From a virus: DNA of 64,000 nucleotides. A program made the position numbers and the translations under genes. The stretch lies in the IMG/VR virus record IMGVR_UViG_3300043436_001160, positions 1-64,000 of that record. The stretch is one strand, 5' to 3'. Positions 1 through 53,000 of this stretch are shown here, piece by piece (position 1 is the stretch's first letter; each line of letters begins with the position of its first letter). Below the pieces are notes generated by a model. That model saw nothing but the letters and a program-made list of their open reading frames with translations, had not been told where the DNA came from and did not search any database.

Positions 1-144
1 TTACCCCTACGGTCAGTAGGGTCAGTCCTTAGAATGCCTGTATGGGTCTTCTAGCGCCACTAAACCAGGCGCAATAGAAATATGGTCAGGTAGTAAGGTT
101 CTACCCCAATACTAGTAACTCAGTTGGTCGAAAGATCAACTGAG

Positions 145-468
145 GGTTTAAGGAGGTACCACATGCATTGGTAATTCTCTTCCCATAGGTTACAGTGTAT
201 ACGACTAAAGTATACACTGGATTGTTTCTATTGCGGAATCCCACCGCTTTATAACCTAAATGGGTGAGCCTCGTTGAAGGTCTGTGGGGAAGTAGCCCAC
301 ATCAACACTCGACTATGCGAGTATAAATAGAAGTTAAGCATAGTGCGTCCCCATGGTCACATGGGGGGTCCGACTGCTACAGCCGTGGCACCCGTAGACT
401 TGAAACATCTACGGCAACTATTGCCAGTTTCAACGGTCAAGGGCTACCTTATATGGAATACTTAAACC
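145..468 (+). other. Long-range loop-strand pairing in the RNA
   Basis: Bases 145-152 (GGTTTAAG) are the exact complement of 461-468 (CTTAAACC). The second copy sits inside the 12-base loop of the hairpin 450-459/472-481. The first lies directly after the GAAA-capped hairpin 119-144. A loop-strand match of eight bases (nine if base 144 is released from its helix) about 300 bases apart is typical of a compact tertiary fold. Pairing is seen; function is inferred. Confidence 0.65.
392..433 (+). other. Pseudoknot
   Basis: Stem 392-398/408-414 (CCGTAGA with TCTACGG) presents a nine-base loop whose TTGAAAC (400-406) is perfectly complementary to GTTTCAA at 427-433, giving a hairpin-type pseudoknot. 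A small GCAA/TTGC helix (414-417/421-424 region) can stack between them. This is direct sequence evidence for an RNA fold rather than a DNA site. Confidence 0.65.
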
Positions 469-506
469 CACATTCCATATAGGGCAGGCTAAATAGGGTT
501 ACATGG

Positions 507-538
507 GACCCCTTAGCGGAAACGCTATGGGGTCTTTT
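507..538 (+). terminator. Terminator-like hairpin within the RNA region
   Basis: A 12-base stem (one T:T mismatch) with a GAAA loop, 507-518/523-534, is followed directly by TTTT. It fits an intrinsic terminator of a first RNA of about 540 bases, or simply a domain of a longer RNA, because similar hairpins continue to position 1203. Confidence 0.4.
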
Positions 539-595
539 ACCGCAAGCAACCTAGCCCATAGGCGGTATATAAATAGTGGGACATCTTTTATGTTT

Positions 596-700
596 AGACC
601 TGAGCATGTCATTAAAAGGCTCAAGACACAGCAAGGCAAGTATCCAAATAGTTCTGAGGAACGGCGCGCAGGATACCCGACTTGCAGACCTGAGCATGTC
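596..700 (+). repeat. Duplicated 15-base motif framing a bulged hairpin
   Basis: AGACCTGAGCATGTC occurs at 596-610 and again at 686-700, 90 bases apart. In each copy the internal GAGC can pair with a downstream GCTC (619-622 and 711-714 region), so the same small hairpin is built twice. Between the copies lies a long stem, 636-640/681-685 plus 641-645/671-675, with a five-base bulge and a GTTC/GAAC cap at 651-662. This is a duplicated structural module inside the candidate RNA. Confidence 0.6.
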
Positions 701-1222
701 CTGTTAAACTGCTCAAAGCTAAAACCTTTGGGATGCCTGAATTAAGGCTCGCTGGTGCCCCCGTAAGTTCCCATAAAGGCGGCGTATTCGTCAAGGCCAA
801 GTCATACCAGGATTCTTGGCACACACTAACCGCAGTTAGAATTCCCTAAAGAATTCTGCTGTAAAGGACTCCCCAGTATTGAGTATTCAAGTGGGGATAC
901 GCGGGATGCACCCGTGCAGGCTTACCACAAGCCCGTGTTATACCCTACCAAGTGGAGGTGGGCCTCAACAGATTGCTGGGCGTCTGTTGTTGATTAAATG
1001 CTCACCGTGTTACTCCGAGCGGGCAATTCGGGGTGTACCATAATCTTATGGGATATTGTTTATGGCCTAAGAAACCCAAGGTAATGTGGCACCAAAGGGC
1101 ACTATGCAAATAAATTGGTACTTTATTTGTAGATATTAAACCCTGTGTTGACCGAGCAGACCAATTCGGTCCCTTATAAGATGTACTCTCGCGTTGAGAG
1201 TACGCCTTTACAGGAGAGTATA

Positions 1223-5954: not shown

Positions 5955-8390
5955 ATGCTAGAGGCATGGAATAAACTTAGTAAAGAAACTAAAGAAAATA
6001 GAGTAACTTTACAAAAACTTTATGAAGAAGAGTTACTAGAGAACGGTACTGAAAAGTACTGGCGAGAGTATGGTCGAGCCCCAGATGAGGGTAAGCCAGA
6101 ACAATTGCTACTTGAATCAGCCGTAATCCACCTCACTCCATTCTATCAAAAATGGATTGATGAATGTTCTAATAATCGTAAGTCTCCAGATTGGTTAGCT
6201 CCATTGTTATGTATTGGTGCTGCTAAAATGGCTGATATTACAATTAGAAATGTAATGCGTTTGTTCTTAACAAGAAACACATTACAAAACTTTGATGATT
6301 CAATAGGCATTCCAAGTAATGCACCTATTGCTCAGCAAGTTGCTAAGTTAATTGCAGATGATGTTATTTCAATTATCGCATATCAACAGGCAAAGAAAAG
6401 ATTCTCAGAAGATTGGCGTAAACAATCTAAGTTTATTAAGAACTGGACTGTTAAACGATGCAAAGCATTTACCCTCAAGGTAACTAAGCTTCCTAAACTA
6501 AAGGCCAAAGAGAAAGAAGATCTCGGTCATAATATGCTTAGGATTGCTTTGGCTTCTGATATCTTAATTAGTCGTATCCATTGGAATGGTAAGAATAAAA
6601 AGTCTCTTCTTGTTTCCTTTGCTCCTTGGATTCTCAAGGAACTAAGCAAGCGACATGAACTACTTGAACAAGCCTGTCTTGTTTACCGTCCAATGATTTG
6701 CCCACCTGTGCAGCATACTAATAAAGAAGATGGTGGATTCCTATCGCCATGGATTCGCAAGAAGATGATTAAACGATATCATCCTGTTGGTGCTAATCCT
6801 AAGGATTGGGATTCACGTCCATCTGAATTGGTATTGCGTGGTCTTAATGCCCTTGCAACTACAGAGTGGTCAGTTAATAAGCAAGTCTATGATGTTATGA
6901 AAACTATGTTTGAGAATGATTATCGAATTGCTAATCTTCCAGCATATACATTCCAAGACTTTGCCTTTAGTCGTACTTATCCAGAAGATGGGACTAAAGA
7001 ACAACAAGCCAAGTGGATGCAAGAATCTAATGAAGCTTGGGGTGAATGGTACAAAGAAGAACAAGCACGATCAAGAATGATTGTCCGCCTTGAGCTTGCT
7101 AAGAAAATGGCAAGTTGGGATTTCTTCTACATGCCATACACTTTGGATTTTAGAGGTCGAGCATATTCAGTATGTGAGTTGTTGTCTCCTCAGGGTATTG
7201 ACTTTGATCGTGGTCTAATCCACTTTGCTGTACCTAGGAAACAATCTCCGCAAGGTTTGCGGTGGTTAAAGATTCATATTGCTAATCTCTTTGACCAAGA
7301 TAAGAAATCCTTTGAAGAACGAATTCAATGGGTTGATTCTAATATTGATATGTTGCTTAGGATTGCAGAAGATCCATATGCTAATAAAGAATGGATTGAT
7401 CTAAGCAAGAAGAAGAACAAATCATTCCAACGCCTTGCAGCAATCTTTGAAATTGCCCGTAAGGATGGAATGACTCAACTTCCAATTCAAATGGATGGCG
7501 CTAATAATGGTGGACAACATTGGTCTGCTATTATGCGTAACAGAAAACTTGCTGTGCTTACTAATCTTATTAAGACTGATAAGCCTCAAGATTTGTATCA
7601 GTTTGTAGCAGATGCTGCAACTGAACACATGCAAGCTAATCCTGATAACAAATGGTTTCCAGCATTCCTTGAATATTGGAATAATGAATTACCTAGAAAT
7701 GTAACTAAGCGTCCCACAATGTGTGATGCATATGGTCTTACATTCTACGGTATGCAGAAATATGTAAAACAGGAAGGCCATGTTGATTGGGTTAGTAAAG
7801 AACAACGAGGTGGTGCCGTTGTTGAACTAAGCCGAGCTATTCAAGCTGGCCTAGGAGAAACAATGGAATCTCCAAACAAAGGTAAAGAATGGTTGCGTGA
7901 AGTTGCAGATATCCTCAATGCAATGAATAAACCATTTGTTTGGACTACCCCAAGTGGGTTTGAGGTGCATCATGTTTATAATCAAGTACTTGAAAGAGTC
8001 AGTTATGCTGAGTTATTTAATCGTCAGCAACTTGTGTTCTGCACTGTTACGGAAGATCTTGATGGTAAAGCGCAGTATCTTGCAATTTCTCCAAACTTCA
8101 TCCATTCATTAGATGCAGCACATATGTTTATGACTATCTCCCAAATGCTTGATGAAGGTATGTCTGCTTATTCGTTTGTACATGATTCATATGGAACTTA
8201 TGCTCCTGATGTTGATAAGATGCATGTACTACTGAGAGAAGAATTCATCAAGATTCATAAGGAGAATCAACTTGAAAGACTCAAGAAAGAAATTGAAGAA
8301 AGATACGGCATCTACCTCCCAGAATGCCCCCAACAAGAAAACGAATTCGAAGTCGAAGAAGTCATTGAATCAGAATACTTCTTTGCCTAA
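5955..8390 (+). CDS. T7-type single-subunit DNA-directed RNA polymerase
   Basis: This 811-residue enzyme (T7: 883) transcribes phage genes from phage promoters. All core motifs are present: DFRGR at 398-402; motif A QMDGANNGGQHW with Asp514; motif B with R581, K585 and Y593 in the exact R-x3-K-x7-Y spacing of T7 R627/K631/Y639; motif C FVHDSYG with H743 and catalytic D744. The C terminus ends EYFFA, matching the aromatic/Ala foot of T7 polymerase (FAFA). The N-terminal promoter-recognition domain is divergent and shorter. The specificity-loop region differs from T7, so promoter sequence cannot be predicted from it. AAGGA precedes the start. Confidence 0.97.
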   Translation: MLEAWNKLSKETKENRVTLQKLYEEELLENGTEKYWREYGRAPDEGKPEQLLLESAVIHLTPFYQKWIDECSNNRKSPDWLAPLLCIGAAKMADITIRNVMRLFLTRNTLQNFDDSIGIPSNAPIAQQVAKLIADDVISIIAYQQAKKRFSEDWRKQSKFIKNWTVKRCKAFTLKVTKLPKLKAKEKEDLGHNMLRIALASDILISRIHWNGKNKKSLLVSFAPWILKELSKRHELLEQACLVYRPMICPPVQHTNKEDGGFLSPWIRKKMIKRYHPVGANPKDWDSRPSELVLRGLNALATTEWSVNKQVYDVMKTMFENDYRIANLPAYTFQDFAFSRTYPEDGTKEQQAKWMQESNEAWGEWYKEEQARSRMIVRLELAKKMASWDFFYMPYTLDFRGRAYSVCELLSPQGIDFDRGLIHFAVPRKQSPQGLRWLKIHIANLFDQDKKSFEERIQWVDSNIDMLLRIAEDPYANKEWIDLSKKKNKSFQRLAAIFEIARKDGMTQLPIQMDGANNGGQHWSAIMRNRKLAVLTNLIKTDKPQDLYQFVADAATEHMQANPDNKWFPAFLEYWNNELPRNVTKRPTMCDAYGLTFYGMQKYVKQEGHVDWVSKEQRGGAVVELSRAIQAGLGETMESPNKGKEWLREVADILNAMNKPFVWTTPSGFEVHHVYNQVLERVSYAELFNRQQLVFCTVTEDLDGKAQYLAISPNFIHSLDAAHMFMTISQMLDEGMSAYSFVHDSYGTYAPDVDKMHVLLREEFIKIHKENQLERLKKEIEERYGIYLPECPQQENEFEVEEVIESEYFFA

Positions 8391-12474: not shown

Positions 12475-12477
12475 TTT

Positions 12478-34965: not shown

Positions 34966-34999
34966 TTTTAGTGTTAACTAATTACATTTTATTACTTGT

Positions 35000-35035
35000 A
35001 CCTAGGGGGTCGAAAGGCCCCCTAGGTATTTTTTT
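35000..35035 (+). terminator. Strong terminator after the capsid gene
   Basis: ACCTAGGGGGTC, GAAA loop, GGCCCCCTAGGT (12 bp, one G:T), then ATTTTTTT. It matches the position of the T7 late terminator after gene 10. Confidence 0.95.
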
Positions 35036-50075: not shown

Positions 50076-53000
50076 GTATGTTTACAAATAATCCTATTAA
50101 TTTAGGACTAACTACTACAAGCAATCAACCTAGTGAAGAATCTTCTGTTTATTTTGGTCCTGTTGATAAAGAAAACATTAGAAAAACTATGTTAATGTTT
50201 GGTTTTGATGCAACTGTTAAAGAAAGACAAAGAAACCAAGAACTTGCTTTAGCGGATGAAAACAAAGCTAACGAAGTTTCTGAATACTTTAAAAGATTTA
50301 AGGAAAGAAAAAATAAAGAAGAAGAAGTAATTGAATCTTATGCCCAAGAGTTAGGTTATGATCAAAAAGGATTATTATCTTACGATCCCAACTCAGGTGG
50401 TAAGTTTAAAATGGGAACTTTAGGTTTTCATGATGCAAATGTTGTAGCAAATTACAATGGTCAATTACTTGAGTTAATGACTACAAACCAAAATACTATT
50501 TGGGCACAAACAAATGCTTTTATGAACACAGATCTTTTTAATGCATCTACCGCATTAGAACCGATTGTAGAAACTGTTCCTATGTTTCAATTAGACCTAG
50601 CAACAGGAACATACTTTAAACCAGATGGCACAACACTATTAATGAAAGATCTTAGAGATACCGCAGGTATTAATCTTGATACTATGGGTATTTCATTTAA
50701 CCCAGACGATCCTGTAACTCCTAATACTATTGTTGGTTTTGGTCTTGAACAAGCACCAATTTTAGCTGAAAGCGTTTTATTAACACAACGGACTAAATCA
50801 CCAGGTATTAAAGCTTTATTACGAAATGAATTTGAAGAATCATTTTTTAATGAACGAGTTGGATCTAATATAGTTAATAATTTTGATAGATATTTGTTAA
50901 AGCCATGGGGTTCAGCAGCTACAGATCTTTCTCTCTGGCCTGTTTTGGATGCTATTGAAGGTTTAGTTTCTCCTGAAACAACAAACCCAGCATGGATTGC
51001 TTTACATAGTTCTAATAAAATTAATGGATCTGAAATGGTTAATGAACTTCAAACTAGAGATCCAGTTCTTTATAAAGCATGGACAGACGAGGGTGTTGAT
51101 TGGGAATACCTAAAAGGCGTTAAAAATGCTGGTGAGTTTAGGTCTTACGTTAATGGTGTATTTATCAATAATGCAATTGCAAGAACCTTAAAATCCCATC
51201 AACAAATACATCCATATTGGACATATGTTAAAGAAGCAAGACACGCGATCTACAGTACCTTAACTTCTGGGGATGCTGTAGGTCAAACAGCAATCATGGT
51301 TGCTACTGCTGGTACTAGTACTGTTTTTTCATTAGGTCTTACTGCACGATCTGCTATAGTTGGTGCAACCAGAACAGCAGCAACTTCTTCTAATAACTTT
51401 AGATTTGGTATTAAAGGAGCCTTGGCTGTAAGACAGAATCTTAAACGAATAAATGCGGCTTTACCTGTTAATCTTCCTGGAACTATATTAGAAATTGCAG
51501 CTAAGAAAGCTGGAACTAAGTTTCCAAGATTAACGGCATTAAATAATACTATAAAAGGAACTAACCTTAGTGCACTAAAGGGAGCTAAGTTAGTTAAAGG
51601 TGCATTTAAAACAGGAGCACTTTGGAGTGCTGGACAAGCTGTAGAGGGTTTTGTTGAAGAAGGCGTTACAAGTTTAATCAATCAAGGATATGATTATTCT
51701 TTAGGATTTAGATCTCATTTAGATTTAGCAAATACATTTGAACAAGCACTTTATGGTGCTATTATGGAACCAATATTAGGCGGTGCCCTTGCTCCTTTAA
51801 ACTTTACAACTGCTAAGATTATTAATAGTCCTAATACTATTATTAATGCTGGTGCTCGTTATTTTAATCTAAGTCCATCTAGAGCCAGAGAATTTAATGC
51901 TTATTTATCAGCTATACAAGGTAGTTTTGATGACTTAGATCCTTTAGCAGCAGAAATGAGAATTCAGCATATTACTAGGGGTTTAATGTTTGAACGAACA
52001 TTTGGTAAGTATACATCAGAAGGATACGACTCTATTGAAAAAGCTTATACATCCCTAGCAAACCTAGGCCATCAAGTAAGTGCTCTTAGCGGAAAACTAA
52101 ATACAACATCTTTATTAGATGCTGGTATTATATTTGGTGAAACACTAGAAAAACTAAATACTGACTATAGACAAAATAGGTTAAACCAAGAACAACTAAA
52201 TAATATTGATGAGGCAATTAAAGCAGATGTTTTTATTCGGGATAAAGATGGAACTCTTAGATTGAACAAAAATCTTGCAGAGTCCTTTTTATTAATTACA
52301 ACTTTAGGTGGTTTAGGTCGAAGTAATAATAACTCTTTATTAAGTTTAAATTTTTTTAAAGCTCAACATGATAACATTGTAACAGAAAAACTTAAAAAAG
52401 AAAATGAAGAGTTAGTAAAAAAAATTGAAGATCCAAATACTCCAATAGAAGAAAAAGAAAAACTACAAGAAGAACTAGATAGTAAAGTTTCTGAGCGTGT
52501 AAAAACTATTAGTAAAGATGTTATCGAACAAGTAGAAAAACAACAACAATTGTTTTTTAAAGTATTTCCTATTGTACAAGAAACTATAGAGTCTTTTGAA
52601 ATTGATCCACAAACTAACAACTCTATTCAAGCCGCTACAAACAGTATATTACAGACATTACAGGAACCAACAAACCGATTACAAAAATTCGCAGAAAGTT
52701 TAAAAAATCAAGAAGATACTAAGGGTACTCCTATAGATACTGGGGCTACTGAGGGTACTGGGGCTACTGAGGATACTGGGGCTACTGAGGGTACTGGGGC
52801 TACTGAGGGTACTGGGGCTACTGAGGGTACCCCTATAGATACTGGGGATATTGAGGGTACTCCTATAGATACTGGAGATACTGAGGGTACTGAAGCTTTT
52901 AAGTTTTCTCTTTTAGATCTACCATTATCAGGAGAAACTTTTGAACAGTTTTCAACTTTACTTAAATCCGTGGATATAGAAACGAATGGATATGTTAATT

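Follow-up and report, generated by a model that had tools for sequence, protein, structure and literature searches.

A Pistol ribozyme and a conserved two-pseudoknot RNA domain in the early leader of a phage encoding a T7-like RNA polymerase

What kind of RNA is specified by the gene-free DNA at the start of this phage sequence? The original prediction held that positions 1-1203 fold as one giant ornate RNA, belonging to the GOLLD, ROOL or OLE class or to a new one, and are transcribed to the right. We find that the region is a real structured-RNA locus read in that direction, yet it is not a single giant RNA, and the class proposed for it was wrong.

Genomic position and non-coding character of the region

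The window, that is, the whole 64,000-nucleotide stretch analyzed, comprises positions 1-64000 of a 69,421-base virus record. The first ~273-274 bases of the record recur at its end with 98.5% identity; because the record ends overlap, the genome is taken to be ~69.1 kb long and to close on itself in the assembly. The overlap, together with homology to a related contig (L004) that continues across the junction, places the beginning of the locus before position 1, ~30 nt upstream of it. Besides an RNA polymerase, the phage encodes DNA primase/helicase, DNA polymerase, ribonucleotide reductase, head-tail adaptor, major head, tail and terminase proteins. The relevant landmarks are as follows.

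1224, + strand: ATG of the first early gene, with a ribosome-binding site (RBS) before it, directly downstream of the leader
5955-8390: single-subunit T7-like RNA polymerase
12.5-13.7 kb: three tRNAs, the one nearest to the locus at 12477

The non-coding region forms the junction between the end of the late genes and the start of the early genes. Upstream of the leader lie small genes with terminator hairpins after them (66048, 68554 and 69068). Gene-end terminators with GAAA or TTCG loops were found at these three places and at 1819 and 34998. That at 34998-35029, directly after the major head protein gene, is a strong intrinsic terminator whose GAAA-capped hairpin comes with a T run; it resembles the T7 terminator after gene 10. 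A search of the genome for a repeated intergenic motif that could represent a phage promoter found none, and promoter-like sites (phage or sigma-70) were fewer than in shuffled sequences. Relatives of the phage RNA polymerase, sought in bacterial genomes for host assignment, were not found there. Elsewhere in the genome, an array of near-identical 18-base repeats (TACTGGGGCTACTGAGGG) occupies 52738-52890 within an ORF. A 638-aa protein encoded at the late end (6621-8537 in L003) has no PHROGs or Pfam match, and its coding sequence likewise has an unusually stable predicted fold (z about -2 to -5); used as bait, this upstream protein retrieved two loci only.

Positions 1-1203 contain only short overlapping ORFs, on both strands, and a coding reading across the region was rejected; the claim that no credible gene is present thus stands. 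The locally higher GC content was likewise evident (0.477 in 1-1000 versus ~0.31-0.42 elsewhere). Hairpin density was compared with dinucleotide shuffles and with the other 1203-nt windows, and proved to be far above chance, as had been supposed. There are 12 perfect non-overlapping stems of at least 6 bp (shuffles: mean 2.4, maximum 7; other windows: mean 5.1, maximum 10) and nine of at least 7 bp (shuffles: mean 0.6, maximum 2; other windows: mean 1.7, maximum 5). The three-way junction proposed at 182-264 is present in the minimum free energy structure, and by eye a counterpart with different paired sequences can be recognized in L010. Several hairpins had been described as capped by GAAA; this is true of 119-144 and 507-534, the only two genuine caps. 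The idea that GAAA hairpins serve as tertiary-contact elements was set aside, since the same loops cap the gene-end terminators of this phage and a terminator reading is simpler.

Folding energy of 1-1203 as a whole gave z = -8.0 on the + strand and -5.5 on the - strand. It is unevenly distributed: local z is strong from about -200 to 700, and 200-nt windows in 601-1200 give values between about +0.8 and -1.5. Because the neighbouring upstream coding DNA also reaches z -5, fold z alone proves nothing. Thermodynamics being insufficient to carry the claim, relatives of the locus were compared.

The Pistol ribozyme and the conserved unit that follows it

Pistol ribozymes were discovered through genome mining. 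The sole non-tRNA match to Rfam in the window is a Pistol self-cleaving ribozyme (RF02679), with the following elements.

307-373, + strand: Pistol ribozyme, 60.7 bits (gathering score 34.5)
307-311/318-322, + strand: P1
313-317/339-343, + strand: loop pseudoknot
348-355/360-367, + strand: P3
G368/U369, + strand: predicted cleavage site, with the GU junction present

As the match is on the + strand, it fixes the rightward direction of the locus. Relaxing the Rfam threshold to E 5 over 1-2000 added no further credible match. Membership in GOLLD, ROOL or OLE was therefore rejected: no Rfam model matched, either in the whole window at gathering scores or in 1-2000 at E up to 5. The phage tRNAs lie ~11-12 kb away, so that the proximity to tRNAs often seen for GOLLD and ROOL does not apply either.

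Using the RNA polymerase as bait, we retrieved 28 related IMG/VR loci. Exactly one Pistol was present in 14 of 21 related records (the record containing the window included), always in the early-leader intergenic region; the remaining records, several of which are short fragments, gave no Pistol match. One further contig found through a module pattern (L197) brings the number of Pistol loci to 15. Two relatives whose RNA polymerase is only ~50% identical also carry a Pistol, and in one of them a small pseudoknot, described below, lies immediately upstream of it. The Pistols of the 13 other records, of L197, of these two relatives and of phage DS1 all score above the Rfam threshold.

Comparison of these loci showed the core of the ribozyme to be intact. 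A337, which is the catalytic purine, G338, G345, C346 and G347 correspond, in our own mapping, to A32, G33, G40, C41 and G42 of env25, where the roles of purine 32, G33 and G40-C41-G42 are described (PMC6154101). These positions are kept in 15/15 loci and in the phage DS1. Both P1 and the loop pseudoknot are 100% paired over the 15 loci, with two and four doubly changed pairs, respectively. Compensatory variants include ACTCG/CGAGT, ACTCA/TGAGT and ACTCC/GGAGT in P1, and CTATG/CATAG, TTGGA/TCCAA and CTAGG/CCTAG in the pseudoknot. P3 is paired in all eight sequences of A2, with variation on one side only; in L008 it carries a long insert and the core is intact. P2 is mostly non-canonical in the Rfam model alignment of the window copy, with two non-standard pairs.

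A search of isolate genomes by DNA sequence yielded a 45-nt match to the Pistol in Cellulosimicrobium phage DS1 (MW590223.1), short matches to the pseudoknot in two crAss-like phages, and nothing more. DS1, a cultured phage, carries the Pistol (66 bits), a leader and the small pseudoknot. The first base of its Pistol is the last base of the stop codon of the upstream gene; a leader of ~480 nt follows the ribozyme, carries the small pseudoknot towards its end and leads into an RBS and an ATG. Taken whole, the DS1 leader is no more stably folded than shuffled sequences (z -0.95). The Pistol of L035 likewise directly adjoins the stop codon of the gene upstream. Such an arrangement is as expected if the ribozyme splits the upstream message from a structured downstream RNA.

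Directly 3' of the Pistol lies a second conserved element, composed as follows.

374-506, + strand: conserved domain with covariation
392-398/408-414, + strand: hairpin A
401-406/427-432, + strand: PK1, pairing of the hairpin A loop with downstream sequence
450-459/472-481, + strand: hairpin B
465-469/496-500, + strand: PK2, pairing of the hairpin B loop with downstream sequence; the A-rich linker TAAATA precedes the downstream strand
507-538, + strand: GAAA-capped terminator-like hairpin (507-518/523-534), then TTTT

No unit other than that of the Pistol, this domain and the terminator-like hairpin is shared by all 15 loci. In 15/15 of them the Pistol is followed by hairpin A, hairpin B with PK2, a terminator-like hairpin and a short T run; PK1 is present in the loci outside group B (L014-L016). 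Segment 369-538 folds at z -5.6, pseudoknots excluded. Covariation among homologues, which the original prediction requires, was found, and it bears out a structured RNA. In an automatic MAFFT alignment of eight sequences, in which hairpins A and B are misaligned for some of the sequences, 21/56 pairs were changed on both sides, giving 49 such cells; shuffles gave 18.0 ± 2.9 (0/500 reached 49), and sliding the partner by 1-3 columns gave 0-16. Five pairs of the terminator-like hairpin have double changes in the alignment of eight sequences. With hand-delimited arms, PK2 is 100% paired over the 15 loci and 5/5 of its pairs are doubly changed (AACCC/GGGTT, AGGTC/GACCT, AAATT/AATTT, CGAGT/ACTCG), as are five pairs in hairpin A and six in hairpin B. 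Since hand delimitation is partly circular, the claim of covariation rests on the automatic alignment. In group B the domain has the same layout but hardly any similarity of sequence, and homology is judged there from architecture; within the group, CCAAATT/AATTTGG is replaced by CCGAGT/ACTCGG, a compensatory change. The ribozyme itself is of a known kind, and the RNA unit linked to it is new.

Mosaic flanks and a small widespread pseudoknot

The sequences on either side of the conserved unit contain the following elements.

1-306, + strand: variable 5' part of the leader, with several hairpins, a three-way junction at ~182-264 and a closing stem just before the Pistol
119-144 (GAAA loop) and 193-219, + strand: hairpins of the 5' part
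233-247, + strand: hairpin whose loop CCCA can pair with TGGG at 261-264
539-582, + strand: module C, hairpin ACCGC..GGCGGT with loop GCCCA pairing with downstream TGGG across a TATATAAATA linker
598-623, + strand: variant copy of the small pseudoknot, GACCTGAGCATGTC...GGCTCA
688-715, + strand: small H-type pseudoknot of ~27 nt; S1 xAC/GTx, S2 TGAGCA/TGCTCA, with AAAC before the 3' strand
831-902, + strand: module E, two stems around conserved TGTAnnGGACTC ... GATACGC
966-1009, + strand: module H, hairpin 966-972/983-989 with loop pairing downstream (TGGGC/GCTCA)
1183-1203, + strand: final hairpin of the leader, GTACTCTCGCGTTGAGAGTAC, upstream of the first early gene and its RBS

Judged by sequence comparison, 1-306 and 539-1203 are a mosaic of RNA modules that are lost, inserted or reordered between relatives, and the core stays intact while these flanks are swapped. 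Segment 1-306 is near-identical only in L004, and 227-306 also in L010 and L197. L004 is 97% identical over 1-558 and lacks 559-618 and 722-1206; L008 has 683-1227 and lacks 1-306. Module C precedes the Pistol in L018 and follows it in the window, and in L010 and L197 a small ORF separates the terminator-like hairpin from module C. The two contig ends of G006 (L034/L013) agree at 99% over 126 bases, a stretch that stops where the terminator-like hairpin ends; they differ over the next several hundred bases and then agree again at 90%, which suggests cassette exchange within one population.

Several of these elements are built alike: the loop of a hairpin pairs with sequence further 3', and the two are often separated by an A-rich linker. 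Module C, module H, PK2 and the Pistol all follow this plan. Module C was found in nine contigs, all within the clade of the window, with loop pairing variants GCCTG/CAGG and GTCCC/GGGAC. With its TATAAATA linker it has the same topology of P1 and loop pseudoknot as the Pistol; P3 and the active site are missing, and it is possibly a non-catalytic cousin. The module H loop pairing reads TGGGC/GCCCA in L028 and CTGCC/GGCAC in L197. Module E is homologous, with different stem sequences, in L008, L010, L028, L035 and L197. It was rejected as a widespread motif: outside the starting clade 13 contigs match its pattern, about the number expected by chance on a rough estimate, and among them the stems are present in L197 only. 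Sequences resembling a tRNA T-arm (GGTTCGAATC, GGTTCAAGTCC) occur ~440 nt after the Pistol in L010, at ~7868-7900 in L197 and ~150 nt after the Pistol in L183; ARAGORN reported no tRNA at the L010 or L183 sites, and these may be tRNA-like modules within the mosaic.

The small pseudoknot, found through this locus, is an apparently novel element not catalogued in Rfam: it had no match in Rfam 15, and in the open-access literature we found no description of it, an earlier report being possible. Its sequence reads xACCTGAGCATGTx'..AAACTGCTCA. Sought with a pattern in which S2 was fixed and the outer part of S1 free, it was present in at least 120 IMG/VR contigs (L044-L163 among them), where far fewer than one would be expected by chance on a rough estimate. 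In the 112 distinct copies the first free pair of S1 is always paired (106 Watson-Crick and six G-U; 50.7 expected if independent). Natural compensatory variants of S2 include TAAGCA, TGAGTA, TGAATA, TAAATA, TGACCA and TGGACA, and DS1 has TGGGCA (its copy lies at ~1908-1936 of L201). A Shine-Dalgarno-like site and start codon follow within 80 nt in 77 of the 112 copies, versus 28% of random positions. Among isolates, SIO1 carries the pseudoknot behind ribonucleotide reductase and the crAss-like phage cr7_1 ahead of DNA primase; in Lactobacillus prophage Lj771 and Staphylococcus phage StB12 it precedes the genes for scaffold and capsid. Present in isolates of very different hosts, it may be a general element of phage gene expression. 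A general co-occurrence with the Pistol was rejected: only 1/50 pseudoknot-bearing contigs carries the ribozyme, and the link between the two is therefore local. In L113, a sequence resembling a hammerhead ribozyme core by eye (CTGATGAGGCAAGACGAAAC) stands right after the pseudoknot copy as a candidate.

Proposed trimming of a ~170-nt RNA, its rivals and known systems

We favour, with slightly more confidence than doubt, the explanation that the Pistol and the terminator trim a discrete non-coding RNA of ~170 nt from the early leader of this uncultured freshwater phage of ~69 kb. Transcripts entering the leader from the left, between the last late and the first early genes, would fold the Pistol and be cut at G368/U369. 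The downstream product would begin with a 5'-hydroxyl, form a compact RNA of ~170 nt with two hairpin-loop pseudoknots and end at about U538; its 5' end would thus be made by its own ribozyme and its 3' end by termination. Hairpin 507-538 is the predicted site of that 3' end, and the terminator is probably weak or condition-dependent because its U tract has four residues only. Read-through would yield the early mRNA, whose 5' leader would carry the further pseudoknot modules, the small pseudoknot included. The released RNA may act as a separate molecule, most likely to regulate early transcription or to protect RNA ends. In favour of this explanation are the 60.7-bit Pistol with its conserved catalytic bases, the covariation of the core, its persistence beside swapped flanks and, in L008, next to the P3 insert, and the stop codons abutting the Pistol in L035 and DS1. 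Against it stand the U4 tract, the lack of any promoter motif found in the genome, the mostly non-canonical P2 and the near-absence of sequence similarity in the group B domain; moreover, a ribozyme and a terminator are also compatible with a purely cis-acting leader. A broader proposal, that 369-538 represents a new trans-acting family of phage RNAs matured by Pistol and terminator and also that the neighbouring pseudoknot is a widespread uncatalogued element controlling stability or translation of key operons in unrelated phages, we regard as doubtful.

The cis-acting leader is the chief rival. In it the Pistol would split the late from the early message, and the pseudoknots would either shield the resulting 5'-OH and 3'-cyclic-phosphate ends from exonucleases or stabilize the loading of ribosomes, with no free trans-acting RNA. 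The stop codons abutting the Pistol in L035 and DS1 agree with this, as do the start sites following the small pseudoknot (77/112 copies, control 28%) and its place ahead of the genes for scaffold and capsid in Lj771 and StB12. However, the unit with the strongest conservation has a terminator-like hairpin at its end, which a pure 5' leader would not need, and in the window this unit is far from a start codon; we consider this reading rather unlikely. A single giant RNA over 1-1203, of the GOLLD/ROOL/OLE class or a new one and perhaps forming a cage, would account for the hairpin density, fold energy and pseudoknots. It is disfavoured mainly because of the mosaic flanks: blocks are gained, lost and reordered independently, as in L004, with its two missing segments, and L018, with its displaced module C. 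The predicted cut at 368/369 and the mid-region hairpin ending at 538 would also break the unit, and no Rfam match to these classes was obtained up to E 5. Its probability is very low.

Antitermination and decoy readings are possible as well. A leader acting as put RNA does in phage HK022 would let polymerase pass the leader terminators into the early genes; put RNA acts on early transcription without protein factors (PMC9378689), and the leader lies between late-gene terminators and early genes and has terminator-like hairpins inside. Yet put consists of two stem-loops with no ribozyme, the likeness is one of arrangement, and cleavage by the ribozyme would detach the leader from the RNA still being synthesized, which makes this improbable. 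Least probable of all, to the point of being hardly credible, is a decoy or antitoxin whose pseudoknots would imitate an RNA antitoxin or tie up a host defence directed at RNA. Phage phiTE is reported to act in such a way against ToxIN (PMC3475682). The early position, rapid module turnover and several pseudoknots in series fit this picture, but no defence partner is known, the modules do not repeat a single unit in tandem, and the core, far from changing fast, is conserved. The trimming explanation gives the layout of stop codon or late terminator, Pistol, two-pseudoknot RNA and terminator-like hairpin a concrete and testable meaning, namely that a Pistol may trim a phage non-coding RNA. As DS1 is cultured and carries both the Pistol and the small pseudoknot, the question is open to bench testing.

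An association of Pistol with phages is already known (PMC4604425). The copy described here shares with its family P1, the loop pseudoknot, P3, the equivalents of purine 32, G33 and G40-C41-G42, and the GU junction; unlike the family elsewhere, it is a fixed part of the early leader of one clade, and the two-pseudoknot domain and terminator-like hairpin downstream are no part of the Pistol family. With GOLLD and ROOL the locus has in common a large structured non-coding region with pseudoknots in a phage, and GOLLD also has a variable 5' part (PMC12286853), but it has no covariance-model match, does not lie beside tRNAs, has no single conserved fold and contains a ribozyme. HK022 put RNA is likewise a structured RNA in a phage early leader (PMC9378689); its two stem-loops come with no ribozyme, whereas a Pistol is present here. 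The theta (HDV-like) ribozymes of gut phages are small phage ribozymes trimming a neighbouring non-coding RNA (PMC10879173). They belong to another ribozyme class and are placed for tRNA 3'-end trimming, whereas in the phage leader a non-tRNA RNA would gain its 5' end.
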